From contig NZER01000359.1 in assembly GCA_002690445.1 (NCBI GenBank), positions 1-6,172 on the forward strand: a DNA stretch of 6,172 nucleotides, given 5' to 3'. This document shows positions 1-5,784 of the stretch, in pieces. Position numbers and translations under genes: made by a program. The notes beneath the pieces are model-generated. The model saw only the letters and a program-made list of their open reading frames with translations. It was not told the origin of the DNA and made no database searches. Source of the DNA: Candidatus Pacearchaeota archaeon (GTDB lineage Archaea; Nanoarchaeota; Nanoarchaeia; Pacearchaeales; GW2011-AR1). The stretch's first letter is position 1, and the number at the start of each line of letters is the position of its first letter.

Positions 1-255
1 ATACGCAGTTCCCTGCGAATCTGCATCGGTGATTACCGATTCACCTGCCGTGTGCCAGCGAGCGCCAGCCGTTCCGATGACCGGAAAACTTGCAGATTTC
101 CCCGATGTAATTGTCCTGGTGACCTGGAGAGGCATGAACTTATTAGCCTCTTGAAAGGTCGCCAGGACTTCGCCAGCGAAGATTTTTAAGAAGAGGGCGT
201 TGTCGTCGCCAGCGGCCAGTGATTGACCGAGGCGTGAAATATCAGAAGCAGCCAT
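1..255 (-). CDS. Major capsid protein, N-terminal part (T7 gp10-like), cut by the window edge
   Basis: Structural protein that builds the icosahedral head. Only the first 85 codons are present; the gene runs off the low-coordinate end. The visible protein starts MAASDISRLGQSLAAGDD. It then carries NALFLKIFAGEVL (about residues 19-31) and TSGKSASFPVIG (about 47-58), which match the T7 gp10 N-terminal segments LALFLKVFGGEVL and SSGKSAQFPVLG in sequence, spacing and order. The start is the ATG at 255-253. It is set by a perfect AGGAGG (266-261) five bases upstream and by the match to the family N-terminus. The position after portal and scaffold is the T7 order, except that a three-gene membrane cassette and a structured leader lie between. 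The full length, and any gp10A/10B-like frameshift at the 3' end, cannot be judged here. Identity is confident from motifs and synteny. Confidence 0.93.
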   Translation of the reverse strand, partial: MAASDISRLGQSLAAGDDNALFLKIFAGEVLATFQEANKFMPLQVTRTITSGKSASFPVIGTAGARWHTAGESVITDADSQGTAY

Positions 256-400: not shown

Positions 401-592
401 TCATGCGCCTCCACGCTTAACCATGCCGCGAGAAACAGCATAGCCAGCGGAGGCGAGCCCTGCGGCAGCAAGGCCCAAGGCTTTCGTCCAAACAGAATCC
501 GAGACAAAGAGATCGGAGGCCATGAGCAGACCGACCACAGCGGCCATCGCCGTCATCCAGAACTCAGTTGTCTTGTAACCCGGTTTCATCAT
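401..592 (-). CDS. Holin-like protein with two membrane spans (63 aa)
   Basis: Probable holin: a small inner-membrane protein that times lysis by forming lesions through which endolysin can act. The protein begins MMKPGYKTTEFWM and has two hydrophobic segments, about residues 12-29 and 37-54, separated by a short polar turn (SDLFVSDSVWTK). It ends in a short basic tail (VKRGGA). This is the class II holin layout with two spans and both ends inside. The KTTEFW start and the GYAVSRG segment resemble small phage holins I know, but that comparison is from memory. The start is the first of two consecutive ATGs (592-590), eight bases from AAGGA (605-601). That ATG overlaps the stop of the preceding lipoprotein gene as ATGA, implying coupling. 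Two adjacent ATGs could in principle allow dual starts, but no charged residue separates them. No endolysin is visible in the window. Confidence 0.7.
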   Translation of the reverse strand: MMKPGYKTTEFWMTAMAAVVGLLMASDLFVSDSVWTKALGLAAAGLASAGYAVSRGMVKRGGA

Positions 593-867
593 CGATCGTT
601 TCCTTCAGGATTTGGGGGGATCAGCCACCAACCAGGGCCGATCGTCACACGGTTAGTTGATTGTATGAGCTGCCCATTCTGCTCGACGAACACACGGGCC
701 TCGACTGACTCTGCGAGCTGTACGATTGAGTATGGGACTCCATCGACATCAACGGTCGACGGGACCAGGATCACGCTTACGCTTCCGCAACTTTGCGCGA
801 ATCCAAGAACGATCAGCATCGGCAGCGCGGTCAGCCTTCTTCCCTTTCGTCGGATTCTCGCGGGCAA
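589..867 (-). CDS. Probable small phage lipoprotein, o-spanin-like, overlapping the 57-aa gene out of frame
   Basis: The frame is open from a TTG at 912 to the TGA at 591-589. Within it a signal-peptide-like stretch reads PARIRRKGRR (basic) then LTALPMLIVLGFAQSC (hydrophobic, ending in Cys). The AQSC sequence is a non-ideal lipobox. The mature part would be about 66 residues, with a neat hydrophilic domain ending GPGWWLIPPNPEGNDR. A small lipoprotein encoded out of frame with an upstream membrane-protein gene, just before a holin, resembles Rz1-type outer-membrane spanins, but I cannot prove that role. The start is uncertain. TTG at 867 gives the best basic n-region but has no clear Shine-Dalgarno; ATG at 819 removes the basic residues; TTG at 912 also lacks a good site. 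Translation may depend on coupling to the overlapping gene. The stop forms ATGA with the holin start. Confidence 0.6.
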   Translation of the reverse strand: MPARIRRKGRRLTALPMLIVLGFAQSCGSVSVILVPSTVDVDGVPYSIVQLAESVEARVFVEQNGQLIQSTNRVTIGPGWWLIPPNPEGNDR

Positions 868-922
868 GAAAGGGAAGCAGCGCGGCCAAAATGCCGCGAA
901 TGATCTCAGCAATCCAGGTCAT
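749..922 (-). CDS. Small amphipathic/basic membrane-associated protein (57 aa), part of the lysis-like cassette
   Basis: A short open frame with sequence MTWIAEIIRGILAALLPFLA (residues 1-20), then a polar linker (RENPTKGKKADRAADADR) and a strongly basic end (RAKLRKRKRDPGPVDR). The first 20 residues form one hydrophobic or amphipathic helix containing Glu6 and Arg9. The ATG at 922-920 overlaps the scaffold stop as ATGA, the coupling mode used at several other junctions here, which is the main reason to call it real. Its 3' two thirds are also read in another frame by the probable lipoprotein gene. The paired layout recalls nested spanin genes, but the protein lacks the long coiled-coil periplasmic domain of a classical i-spanin. 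It could instead be an accessory holin or another lysis peptide. Function unknown; that it is translated is an inference from start context and frame integrity. Confidence 0.6.
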   Translation of the reverse strand: MTWIAEIIRGILAALLPFLARENPTKGKKADRAADADRSWIRAKLRKRKRDPGPVDR

Positions 923-1743
923 CCCATTACATCGGAGCGGGCGAGCTTGTCCCTCACCTTTGTGCGGAATGCGCTGTCCTGCTTGTAGAGATCGCTGCGC
1001 ATGTCAGTCATCACTTGCTCAAGGCTCTCGTAGGCCGCTGGTCCACCCGGTCCCACAGGCTCTGACTGAAGCAGTCGAGGCTGCTTGTTCCCTGAGTGCC
1101 CTGACTGATGATAGCGGGCCATCATGCCCAGCACCGCCATCTTGGCTGTTGCCGCATCACCCGTCTCCATTTGCACGTTGTAGGCGGCTATCTCTTCAGG
1201 AGAGAGGGCGCTTACCGCCCAGTCCAAAGCTGTTGTGTAGGACTCTTTGCCCCCGGCAGCCTCGTAGATCTGAGAGAGCTCGGCTTGGTGGGAGGCACGC
1301 TGGCCCTCCATGAACGCCTGCACCAACTCCCGCTGCAGTCCCATCTTCTCCAGAGAAGCGAAGGACTCTTCCTTCAACTCGCCGGACTCGGCGAACTCAT
1401 CGTAGAACGGCTGCAAGGCGTTAGTCCCCACGCCCTCAGGGATCGTGGCCTCTTGCTCCCCCGCCTCCTCGGCATCCTCAGGCGCTTCCGACTGTCCCAG
1501 CCGCCCCTCGAGTTCCTTGTATGCCTTGGCCATAGCCTCGGCATCATTGAACTTCTCGGGCAGCCAGTCAGGCCGTGAGGACTCCTCAGCCTCTTCAGTG
1601 GCTAGTGCCTCTTCGTCTTCCTCCTGGTCGGTGGGGATTGAGATCCCCTGCGGGATTATTGCCGAGACTTTGACTTCTGGTGCTTCCGGCGCCTCGGCCG
1701 GCGTGCTCCCACTGCTCAGTGAAATACTGTGCGCTTCTCCCAT
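919..1743 (-). CDS. Capsid assembly scaffolding protein (T7 gp9-like)
   Basis: Internal scaffold that directs capsid protein and portal into the procapsid and then leaves. The 274-residue product is close to T7 gp9 (about 300). It is very acidic, with Glu/Asp-rich stretches around residues 40-54 and 87-98. It contains RPDWLPEKF (57-65) followed by an AYKELEGRLG segment (74-83), a pairing common in T7-like scaffolds. The middle is predicted helical and Glu/Ala-rich. The end (238-274) is a charged helical segment, YESLEQVMTDMRSDLYKQD then a Lys/Arg-rich stretch, as expected for the capsid-binding tail. The ATG at 1743 lies seven bases after AGGAGG (1756-1751). That site overlaps the portal TAG stop, so the two genes are closely coupled. 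The stop forms ATGA with the downstream 57-aa gene. Position between portal and capsid supports the call. Confidence 0.92.
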   Translation of the reverse strand: MGEAHSISLSSGSTPAEAPEAPEVKVSAIIPQGISIPTDQEEDEEALATEEAEESSRPDWLPEKFNDAEAMAKAYKELEGRLGQSEAPEDAEEAGEQEATIPEGVGTNALQPFYDEFAESGELKEESFASLEKMGLQRELVQAFMEGQRASHQAELSQIYEAAGGKESYTTALDWAVSALSPEEIAAYNVQMETGDAATAKMAVLGMMARYHQSGHSGNKQPRLLQSEPVGPGGPAAYESLEQVMTDMRSDLYKQDSAFRTKVRDKLARSDVMG

Positions 1744-3803: not shown

Positions 3804-4178
3804 CTATGGACCCTCATCGAAGAAGCCTACCGCTTCCTGTGCCAAAGCCTCCTCAGTAATCCCTGCCCGCTCTCGCATGTAAGCGGCCAGAATCACAGCA
3901 TAGTTGATCAGATCCACCAGGGAATCTGTCGCCCCTTCGTTCTCGACTACGAGCTTGCCATCTCGCACAAAGGTCACCAAGCGATTGAGCTTGTCCGTCA
4001 TCCTCACCAAGATGCCCGCCTCTGTCGGCGCAATACCCAGTGCCTCGACGGCCTCAAAGTTCCTGAAAGGGGAGGCGCCAGTCGCGCCGGCATAGTCATG
4101 GTTCTTCCGCTCGCAGAGCTGGTAAGCCTGGTAGCAAAAGGCCAAGTGAAACTTCAGTAGTTCGTCGACCGTCATCAT
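3804..4178 (-). CDS. DUF1599 family protein (MazG-like; nucleotide-modification-associated domain)
   Basis: Small all-helical protein of the DUF1599 type, found in phages and bacteria and linked to nucleotide metabolism or modified DNA. Family-like features in order are CERKNHDYAG (22-31), SPFRNFEAVEALG (36-48), RMTDKLNRLVTF (59-70) and DSLVDLINYAVILAAYMRER (85-104). The acidic and Asn residues Asp63, Asp85, Asp89 and Asn92 sit where MazG-like NTP pyrophosphatases keep metal ligands. Length (124) is normal for a stand-alone domain. The start is the first of two adjacent ATGs (4178-4176), which overlaps the preceding stop as ATGA; an AGG lies upstream within GCAGGC. Its likely role is handling of a (deoxy)nucleotide during phage replication, but the substrate cannot be read from sequence. 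No dedicated base-modification enzyme is visible in this window. Confidence 0.82.
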   Translation of the reverse strand: MMTVDELLKFHLAFCYQAYQLCERKNHDYAGATGASPFRNFEAVEALGIAPTEAGILVRMTDKLNRLVTFVRDGKLVVENEGATDSLVDLINYAVILAAYMRERAGITEEALAQEAVGFFDEGP

Positions 4179-4498
4179 TGCGATGCCTGCTTTTTCTCGG
4201 TTCTCTGCGCCAGCGCCGAAGCTGAAATGGGCGGGCGCTTCTTACGTTTCCAGCGGTAATCCTGAGCACTTCGCGCCCCCCCGCACCAGTAAACGCTCGG
4301 GTGTTGGCGGACGTTCCGCGACAGGGTGGGTCCAACCGGTATAACGCGGCCCTGATAAATGAGCTCGCTGCTGGTCTCTTCGCGGTGCTCGTCCACCCAC
4401 ACTCTCAGGTAGGAGCTCAAATCCTGCTGGAGGTATCTGAGGATGTCTCGGTTATCCAAGCGGCTCTTCTTTAGAATCTTTACGCGCTCCTTCTTCAT
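4175..4498 (-). CDS. Small basic protein of unknown function (107 aa)
   Basis: I do not recognise the family. The protein begins MKKERVKILKKSRLDNRDIL, continues with a helical Leu/Tyr-rich part (RYLQQDLSSYLRVWVDEH), a beta-like stretch (ELIYQGRVIPVG) and a HPSVYWCGGARSAQDYRWKR segment, and ends in a Lys/Arg/Gln-rich tail. It has a net positive charge and no membrane span, suggesting nucleic-acid binding. That is inference only; I see no HNH or zinc-ribbon ligand set. The frame stays open upstream to about 4645, but that part overlaps the exonuclease and looks like shadow sequence. The ATG at 4498-4496 overlaps the exonuclease stop as ATGA and has GGAAG six to nine bases upstream, so it is preferred. 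It lies between two nucleic-acid/nucleotide genes and is coupled to both by ATGA junctions. Confidence 0.68.
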   Translation of the reverse strand: MKKERVKILKKSRLDNRDILRYLQQDLSSYLRVWVDEHREETSSELIYQGRVIPVGPTLSRNVRQHPSVYWCGGARSAQDYRWKRKKRPPISASALAQRTEKKQASQ

Positions 4499-5262
4499 CG
4501 GTGCTTCCGCGGATTCCACAAGGTGACCTTGTGTGTCTTCTGGTCGTAGAGCTTCGGAGTGAGGATCTTGGCTAGGCGTGCCTGCAGTAGAGCTTCGGTT
4601 TCGTTGAGGCCCTTCTTCTCGTAGGCGTCCACGACTTCCTCCCATAGGCCCTGCTTGAGGATTGCCTCAGCCCTCTTAGGCCCAACTCCCGGCAGGCCGG
4701 GGTATCCATCGCCACTGTCGCCTGTCAGCGTCTGCGTCAAATGGTAGCGCCGCGCATTGGCATACGTCACACGCCTGACGCCGCGCTCGGGATGCATCGG
4801 CTGGTAGAGCATGCAAGGTATCGACTCCATGTCGTGATCATCAGAGACGACTATCTTAGGAGCAGGCACCGAATGGCTCTTGGCCAGGATGCCTATGATG
4901 TCGTCCGCCTCGACGTTGGGCCAGCACTCGCTGCGCCACTCAGATATCACCCACTCACGCAGCGCAGGAAAGATCGTAGGCTTCCTGTCTTTCCTGTGCG
5001 CCTTGTAGCGGGGGAACAGTTCATGCCTGAATGTCTTCCGCGGCGAGAAACACATGATGACGCTGACGCCCCCAAGCACATCACAGAGGTGAGCGACTTC
5101 GTCCTGCACCTTTGCCTTCGCCTGCTTGAGGTCGGCATGCAACGTCCACAGTTCGTTGTCTGTGTCCCAGCAGATTGCCTCTTCCTCTGCGATAGCGATC
5201 CGAAAAACAAGTATGTCTGCGTCGACCAAAAGCGTGTTCCGCTTCTTCCTCTTCCTGCCCAT
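4495..5262 (-). CDS. 5'-3' exonuclease of the FEN/PIN superfamily (T7 gp6-like)
   Basis: Degrades DNA from 5' ends. In T7-like phages gp6 breaks down host DNA, removes RNA primers and takes part in recombination. The 255-residue protein shows the family's metal-binding motifs in order: LLVDAD (11-16, Asp14 and Asp16), the basic arch segment YKAHRKDRKP (86-95), VEADD (117-121), SDDHD (140-144, aligning with SADKD-type motifs, so Asp142 and Asp144) and TGDSGDGYPGLPGVGPKRA (180-198). The last combines the final Asp pair (182, 185) with the helix-hairpin-helix DNA-binding element. The N-terminus is very basic (MGRKRKKR). It is shorter than T7 gp6 (about 300). The ATG at 5262 lies six bases after AGGAGG (5274-5269), which overlaps the preceding stop. 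It is downstream of DNA polymerase as in T7. All key acidic residues are present, so it should be active. Confidence 0.95.
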   Translation of the reverse strand: MGRKRKKRNTLLVDADILVFRIAIAEEEAICWDTDNELWTLHADLKQAKAKVQDEVAHLCDVLGGVSVIMCFSPRKTFRHELFPRYKAHRKDRKPTIFPALREWVISEWRSECWPNVEADDIIGILAKSHSVPAPKIVVSDDHDMESIPCMLYQPMHPERGVRRVTYANARRYHLTQTLTGDSGDGYPGLPGVGPKRAEAILKQGLWEEVVDAYEKKGLNETEALLQARLAKILTPKLYDQKTHKVTLWNPRKHR

Positions 5263-5272
5263 GTAATGCCTC

Positions 5273-5380
5273 CTAGAACTCCACGATGATGCGTGCGAAC
5301 CAGATGATGGCCGCCCAAAAAAGTAGAGACACCCCCGTCCAAACCAGCAGCGCCTGCCCAGGCGATAGCTTGTCTTTCAT
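5273..5380 (-). CDS. Very small single-span membrane protein (35 aa)
   Basis: Reads MKDKLSPGQALLVWTG then a strongly hydrophobic segment VSLLFWAAIIWFARIIVEF. It has one predicted transmembrane helix (about residues 10-33) after a short Lys-containing N-terminus. The ATG at 5380-5378 has AGGAGG about four bases upstream and overlaps the homing endonuclease stop as ATGA. Its TAG stop lies inside the exonuclease Shine-Dalgarno. These start and stop signals, rather than similarity, support it as a real gene. Function unknown. Tiny membrane proteins in phage early/middle regions may alter host membrane proteins or lysis timing, but nothing here decides that. A longer frame continues upstream but is antisense-like shadow within the endonuclease gene. 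Confidence 0.62.
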   Translation of the reverse strand: MKDKLSPGQALLVWTGVSLLFWAAIIWFARIIVEF

Positions 5381-5784
5381 GGTCCCTCCTTGTAGTCGAT
5401 CTGTTTCATCGAACTGAGCTGTTTGATGAGTGCTTCCCGCCGCGCACCGGGACTCTCCTCTCGGATTGCCAACATCAGTTCTGCCTGTGGCCGCTTCTCC
5501 CAAAGAAAGGGCTTCAACAGTTCCACCAAGCGGATCGCTGCATCCCCATAGACCCGCCACTGAAAGTATGTGCGGCCCTTCTTCTTGTGTGCGCGTTGTA
5601 GCACTGTCCCCCCAAAGCTCGACGCCAACTGATGCAAGGTGAAGGGGAAGCAATTGGTGACGGATACCTCGGGAGAACTTTCGTTCCACCGGAAACAACC
5701 GTCGCCGTCAATATATCCAGCGATATACGACAGCCATACGTCAGTGTGTTTCGGCCCAGGTTTGCCCAACCTTTGTCTCCCCAC
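5377..5784 (-). CDS. LAGLIDADG homing endonuclease (single-motif, free-standing)
   Basis: Site-specific DNA endonuclease that copies its own gene into lineages lacking it. The 135-residue protein carries one LAGLIDADG motif, YIAGYIDGDGCF (20-31), in which Asp28 is the expected metal-binding catalytic acid. Beta-strand-like segments follow (PEVSVTN; TYFQWRVYG) with helices after (HQLASSFGG; AIRLVELLKPFL), the usual order of the fold. One motif implies a homodimer of the I-CreI type. The GTG start at 5784 has GAAGG (5798-5794) nine bases upstream and lies inside the polymerase 3' end, so the two genes overlap by 44 bases in different frames. The polymerase reads through to its normal C-terminus, so this is a free-standing gene and not part of an intein. 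No intron boundary is visible. The stop forms ATGA with the next gene. Confidence 0.88.
   Translation of the reverse strand: MGRQRLGKPGPKHTDVWLSYIAGYIDGDGCFRWNESSPEVSVTNCFPFTLHQLASSFGGTVLQRAHKKKGRTYFQWRVYGDAAIRLVELLKPFLWEKRPQAELMLAIREESPGARREALIKQLSSMKQIDYKEGP

Follow-up and report, generated by a model that had tools for sequence, protein, structure and literature searches.

Does one short stretch of phage DNA encode two proteins in different frames, and if it does, what does the pair do? Both questions are raised by a window of 6,172 nucleotides, a piece of a T7-like phage that is read on the minus strand. Its genes follow one another in the order homing-endonuclease-like ORF, exonuclease, portal (PF12236), scaffold (PF05396), three small genes termed here A, B and C, and capsid (Table 1). 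An open frame ahead of the homing-endonuclease-like ORF resembles what we take to be the end of a DNA polymerase. That ORF itself (5377–5784, minus strand), which has the exonuclease gene downstream of it, is of LAGLIDADG/HNH type (phrog_5046, E 6e-16), and in a related contig (L016) a second LAGLIDADG-like ORF comes after gene C (4406–4825). Also on the minus strand, a longer ORF ends in a 35-aa peptide that resembles one transmembrane segment (MKDKLSPGQALLVWTGVSLLFWAAIIWFARIIVEF; 5276–5380), and a 124-aa protein has a sub-threshold match to DUF1599 (nucleotide modification; 3804–4178).

The first-pass annotation of this DNA had read positions 749–867 of the minus strand in two frames, and these positions prove to be the exact overlap of A and B. 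Gene A is complete at 57 aa as proposed, running from ATG 922 to the stop at 749 and coupled to the scaffold gene, whose stop codon its ATG overlaps as ATGA (919–922). The second frame, B, was likewise found as described, from TTG 867 to the stop at 589, with its Cys (789–787) in AQSC and the C-terminal end ...GPGWWLIPPNPEGNDR; the start of gene C overlaps the B stop, again as ATGA (589–592). What does not hold is the description of the pair as nested: B extends 160 nt beyond A, and the pair is therefore overlapped. Neither A nor B matched a Pfam or PHROG family at E ≤ 1.

Table 1. Features of the A/B locus in the window
Feature	Coordinates	Strand	Remarks
Gene A	749..922	-	57 aa, net charge +8; amphipathic helix at the N-terminus, basic segment after it
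Gene B, lipoprotein (predicted)	589..867	-	92 aa from TTG 867; alternative ATG 819; +1 frame relative to A
Dual-coded A/B overlap	749..867	-	119 nt; from geometry and leave-window-out test
Predicted signal peptide of B	787..867	-	Cys27 at 789-787; its lipobox, AQSC, is weaker than those of relatives
Mature part of B	592..786	-	Small all-beta domain, five strands (AF2 model)
Gene C, holin-like	401..592	-	63 aa, KTTEFW...GYxVSRG
Shine-Dalgarno-like AAGGAA ahead of gene C	601..606	-	Within 3' end of B
Scaffold gene, upstream of A	919..1743	-	PF05396, phrog_1052
Major capsid gene, downstream, cut by window end	1..255	-	phrog_27239

Relatives were collected through B. A search with window B alone gave six viral contigs, and a profile from this set gave 110 stretches, of which 80 were kept; with a wider B profile at least 467 of 599 candidate IMG/VR stretches encode a B relative (80 kept). 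The 168 sequences examined, window included and several from one contig, represent 78 distinct B genes. Geometry was measured at 37 loci, again with the window, four of 41 (L054, L083, L084 and L091) having been dropped as their start was unassignable or off the contig. Among 50,697 phage records, tblastn with three B proteins found no match better than E 0.8, and a fourth, divergent B found none better than E 1. A scan of genomes from 84,980 species with a narrow B profile returned two matches, both in bins labelled Planctomycetota. A divergent version with the same C, A, B order was seen in L191 (2258–2725); the middle of its B reads MRVGPDARFRVYHRVAGEWTLSSNRIAIPEGW, so the family is broader than the profile used.

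In the window taken singly, synonymous recoding of B within the overlap keeps A open in 52% of trials, so the open frame there is little proof of dual coding. Relatives keeping only one of the two frames open, which the first-pass annotation had named as one refuting observation, were not found: all 78 distinct loci keep both. Their A-like frame, always at +1, scores E<1e-3 in 70 (E for 10,000 sequences) and more weakly, up to E 0.87, in the other eight. At each of the 37 measured loci B begins at A codon 16–31, out of frame within A, and outruns it, which is the overlapped arrangement, with an overlap of 77–179 nt in the +1 register. An HMM for A made from four relatives, with the window left out, gives window A 28.3 bits (E 8e-7, 10,000 sequences), and none of 1000 synonymous recodings of B reaches the score of window A with either of two models that leave the window out.

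Variation by codon position was compared among zones at 25 loci of the largest clade, which is T7-like where neighbours could be read and lies outside the window's own group. Third positions of A vary most in the A-only zone (0.52), as do third positions of B in the B-only zone (0.53, with second positions at 0.13); in the overlap, B third positions stand at 0.36 and second positions at 0.29. Bootstrap intervals of the third-position ratio, 1.04–2.28 in the overlap and 1.97–8.58 outside it, just touch. The partly overlapped zone behaves as B alone, indicating that the variable tail of A is unconstrained. A recoding null was prepared for 22 loci by fixing the B protein and redrawing synonymous codons at the rate of B-only codons. 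Observed A-frame identity is 0.60 against 0.32 expected, and lies above the null mean for every one of the 228 pairs tested. These pairs share ancestry and so are not independent; in 209 of them, at most two of 100 nulls reach the observed value. Among 49 held-out loci, absent from the model though some are close to loci in it, A is found in 41 at E<1e-3, and after recoding in 4, 5 and 5. Codon-level conservation in both frames had been put forward as a check, and the recoding tests show selection on both; on these comparisons of sequence we consider A/B dual coding established.

The same data bear on the possibility that B is the sole gene and A a by-product of the codons of its signal peptide. 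The basic stretch of A does overlie hydrophobic codons of B, and the A tail past the common overlap is, as noted, free to vary. The Shine-Dalgarno sequence of B, moreover, accounts for some conserved A residues: AAGGA stands 5 or 8 nt ahead of the B start in 26 of 37 loci, spelled by A codons reading mostly S-K-E/D (five loci have another purine-rich site and six, the window included, none by the rule used). The recoding nulls, however, reject a by-product, A is conserved upstream of B too, with position 3 the most variable in the A-only zone, and A persists as a domain in the fused proteins described below. We have rejected this explanation, which we hold to be extremely improbable.

B is predicted to be a lipoprotein. 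Its lipobox Cys is invariant in a 29-sequence alignment, and where the Cys was placed by the pattern [GAS]C (37 of 41 loci) Gly occupies position -1 in 34 of 37 and Asp position +2 in none. The residue after the lipobox Cys, by the +2 rule, governs outer-membrane sorting. A lipobox thus characterises the family, from which localisation is predicted, although the AQSC of window B is a poor one. The start of window B is not firm: TTG 867 lines up with GTG starts in L015 and L016 but shows no Shine-Dalgarno sequence under the rule used, and the alternative ATG 819 would leave just 10 residues ahead of the Cys. In seven phage records of which nearly all was read, a simple rule for lipoproteins picks out B five times, four of them as the sole candidate; B escapes it in G002 and G008, and implausible frames are flagged in G002, G005 and G008. 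Mature B has neither extra cysteines nor a transmembrane segment (KD19 maximum 0.02–1.49, 37 loci), and the lipobox with C-terminal transmembrane segment that marks a unimolecular spanin was seen at none of these loci. The AF2 model of window B has pLDDT block means of 81–95 for residues 31–90, above 90 for 41–80, and continues as beta-strand up to residue 83; structure searches gave no clear match for B.

Ten places with B (E ≤ 1e-6) were found in seven of 294 Planctomycetota genomes. Five have the window-like overlap (G015, G016, G126 and G234 twice), and at the other five, in three genomes, A and B are one protein (G091 twice, of which L201 is cut at its start, G141 twice, and G302). The fused order is A helix, basic stretch, hydrophobic stretch, [AS]GC lipobox and B domain. 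From the A start to the Cys, the four complete fused genes span 183–198 nt by alignment count, as against 118–148 nt in the 37 overlapped loci, because in fused genes the basic stretch and signal sequence lie in tandem rather than superposed; given this longer distance, the fused forms do not look like frame errors. The G302 copy, on a contig of 4.25 Mb with an integrase gene some 11 kb away, is most likely a prophage, and its fused gene sits between a small membrane gene and a tape measure gene. Overlap and fusion together strongly support A and B as one functional unit, and since A stands ahead of the signal sequence in the fusions, A should be cytoplasmic.

This placement of A matters for a conventional reading of the pair as an overlapped two-component spanin, with A a very short i-spanin whose C-terminus is periplasmic and B the o-spanin. 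Geometry and the +1 register fit the overlapped class in the part of Kongari et al. (2018, PMC6139136) used here, and the combined length is within the range given there. The first-pass annotation had thought A too short for a normal i-spanin, but length alone cannot exclude one, as the same part of that survey includes two-component spanins whose periplasmic residues total as few as 62. The objections to a normal i-spanin come instead from the fusions and the A sequences. A proteins are 55–83 aa, with an N-terminal part whose hydrophobic moment is 0.42–0.70 in 29 of 29 (taken as the highest value among the first 20 start positions, which for a few members falls beyond the first helix) against 0.21–0.34 for the i-spanins of lambda, T7 and P2. 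None of the 29 has K or R at residues 2–5, and just four have a KD19 of at least 1.6, window A being borderline at 1.67; by hydropathy, a type II inner-membrane anchor is not recognised across this set. T7 gp18.5 itself has a KD19 of only 1.35, so hydropathy alone is not decisive, and the stronger arguments against i-spanin identity are the fusions and the lack of charge at the N-terminus. We therefore consider a conventional spanin unlikely. The N-terminus of A has the look of an amphipathic helix more than of a segment that spans the membrane; of the membrane protein first proposed for the outer frame, the small size and a putative membrane activity are supported.

A short, amphipathic and often basic A (net charge -1 to +8, the latter in the window) could also be a disruptin-like antimicrobial peptide released via holin lesions, with B its docking partner or an independent lipoprotein. 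The T7-like phage phiKT has such a gene, for a 56-aa amphipathic disruptin, adjoining its holin gene (PMC12819732, in the part consulted for this comparison). Against this, A gives no BLASTP alignment with phiKT gp28, six of the 29 A proteins have a net charge of 0 or -1, and three genomes have A joined to B in one protein; we judge it improbable.

The neighbourhood of the pair suggests its function. At E<1e-3, gene C lies upstream in 40, downstream in 6 and in neither place in 32 of the 78 distinct loci; 23 of these 32 were examined, and 22 have at least one hydrophobic ORF near the B start (those of L039 and L165 look spurious), with none in L181. Hydropathy of 26 C proteins is transmembrane-like (KD19 1.76–2.50). 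Window C has two weak PHROG matches, both to families of unknown function, and none to named holin families of Pfam or PHROG; its relatives have weak holin-family matches, as of the L083 protein to PF23809 (E 1e-4, 22.5 bits, cut-off 27). A curated holin family, PF23987 (Phage_holin_10), is over its cut-off (63–72 bits against 27) in ten of 17 records, the ten belonging to the set with no C gene on either side, and in none of 14 controls. Nine of the ten (the L123 group) have a 4-nt overlap between the stop of this holin gene and the A start codon, and in L143 the two genes are separated by 179 nt. PF23987 is absent from the other seven of the 17, including the window's own group (L006), so there the assignment of C draws on hydropathy and weak matches; window C and B fall below their relatives on holin and lipobox criteria. 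Other loci have membrane proteins of 115–130 aa that are unnamed by PHROGs and Pfam (the latter for L092 only), and further loci have ones of 119–122 aa near A/B. Unrelated membrane genes alternating in one slot are typical of holins. In L156 (2142–2722) and L193 (2076–2665) three genes share DNA, a 119–122-aa membrane protein ending at the B start and A overlapping both.

Gene order adds to this. In L014 it is tail fibre, two small ORFs, A/B, C, terminase small and terminase large, which is close to the T7 order of tail fibre, holin, terminase small, spanins and terminase large. Four contigs of one lineage (L007–L010), found with the scaffold protein (52% identical), lack A, B and C by HMMs run on L007, and have in the scaffold-capsid slot a 146-aa gene instead (L007:1879–2316, plus strand). 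Its product, which has no match among the phage records, has LPSC as its lipobox and is acidic in the middle; towards the C-terminus comes a hydrophobic stretch, a weak one (KD19 1.62 against 2.97 for T1 gp11), and then a basic tail, a layout that is u-spanin-like. Endolysin families were sought as well: PF00959 (Phage_lysozyme) and PF08291 (Peptidase_M15_3) were found in none of 14 records (G001–G014), PF01510 (Amidase_2) over its cut-off in none of the 14, with one sub-threshold match in G011, and PF13539 (Peptidase_M15_4) in none of 17. Phages with A/B may use an unrecognised cell-wall enzyme.

A curated holin nearby, the T7-like position in L014 and a u-spanin-like gene in the same slot thus suggest a role in lysis. 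They have to be weighed against a superinfection-exclusion or entry-related lipoprotein pair, acting for example with the tape measure protein. Phages do encode envelope proteins of such a role (T1 Cor is annotated so), the G302 fused form adjoins a tape measure gene, and the lack of a recognised endolysin points the same way. ATGA coupling to the curated holin in nine records, the L014 position and the swap in L007–L010 speak for lysis, however, and a non-lysis role seems to us rather improbable.

With moderate confidence, then, we read A/B as a divergent, spanin-like outer-membrane disruption pair that fills the place of the spanins in a holin-led lysis cassette. The first-pass annotation had raised a minimal or different lysis pair, and a lysis role of that type is now supported as probable. 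C, or its replacements, would open the inner membrane; B would be sorted to the outer membrane, and the amphipathic helix of A would keep it at the inner membrane, on the cytoplasmic side; once triggered, the two would jointly destabilise both membranes. In the fused forms A would be an extended N-terminus ahead of the signal sequence of B, an order in which cutting at the lipobox would leave A in the inner membrane with B going outward. More tentatively, the pair could represent a third architecture, an inner-leaflet amphipathic peptide with an outer-membrane lipoprotein, made from overlapping frames or one precursor in hundreds of uncultured phages with Planctomycetota among their hosts; in the one-precursor form the long signal region, after lipoprotein processing, would itself be the inner-membrane partner. 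Because a type II anchor was looked for and not found, A/B should not be filed as a spanin member.

Since many uncultured phages retain A/B, frequently beside a holin-type gene, the pair is probably an unrecognised phage route to outer-membrane breakage when the host bursts. In the part of the survey by Kongari et al. (PMC6139136) used here, some 13% of phages of Gram-negative hosts had no recognisable spanin, and 31 genomes had a lipoprotein with no i-spanin partner nearby. To such partnerless lipoproteins A/B would give a partner invisible to searches for type II anchors, and the fused forms offer a natural test of how the A and B parts cooperate.

Among known systems, Phage_holin_10 (the Pam3 gp28 family) is the neighbour ATGA-coupled to A in the nine L123-group records, whereas window C belongs to a separate family of small membrane proteins, in which relatives match holin families only weakly. 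The phiKT disruptin gp28 resembles A in being about 56 aa, basic and next to a holin in a T7-like phage; besides not aligning, it differs in its moment (0.37, against 0.42–0.70 for A) and in having no lipoprotein partner. Unimolecular spanins such as T1 gp11 share their layout with the slot gene of the four scaffold relatives, and fused A-B is likewise one polypeptide with a lipobox, but B is without a C-terminal transmembrane segment and the extra part of the fusion is N-terminal. To spanin families A/B has no sequence match save a weak, unspecific one to phrog_456. Overlapped two-component spanins, as P2 LysB/LysC are presented in the part of PMC6139136 used here, are alike in that the lipoprotein gene starts out of frame inside a small upstream gene and outruns it, with a lipobox and a holin nearby. 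The A/B pair differs from them in that A has an amphipathic helix in place of the type II anchor, the mature part of B is modelled as a beta domain, and in-frame A-B fusions exist.
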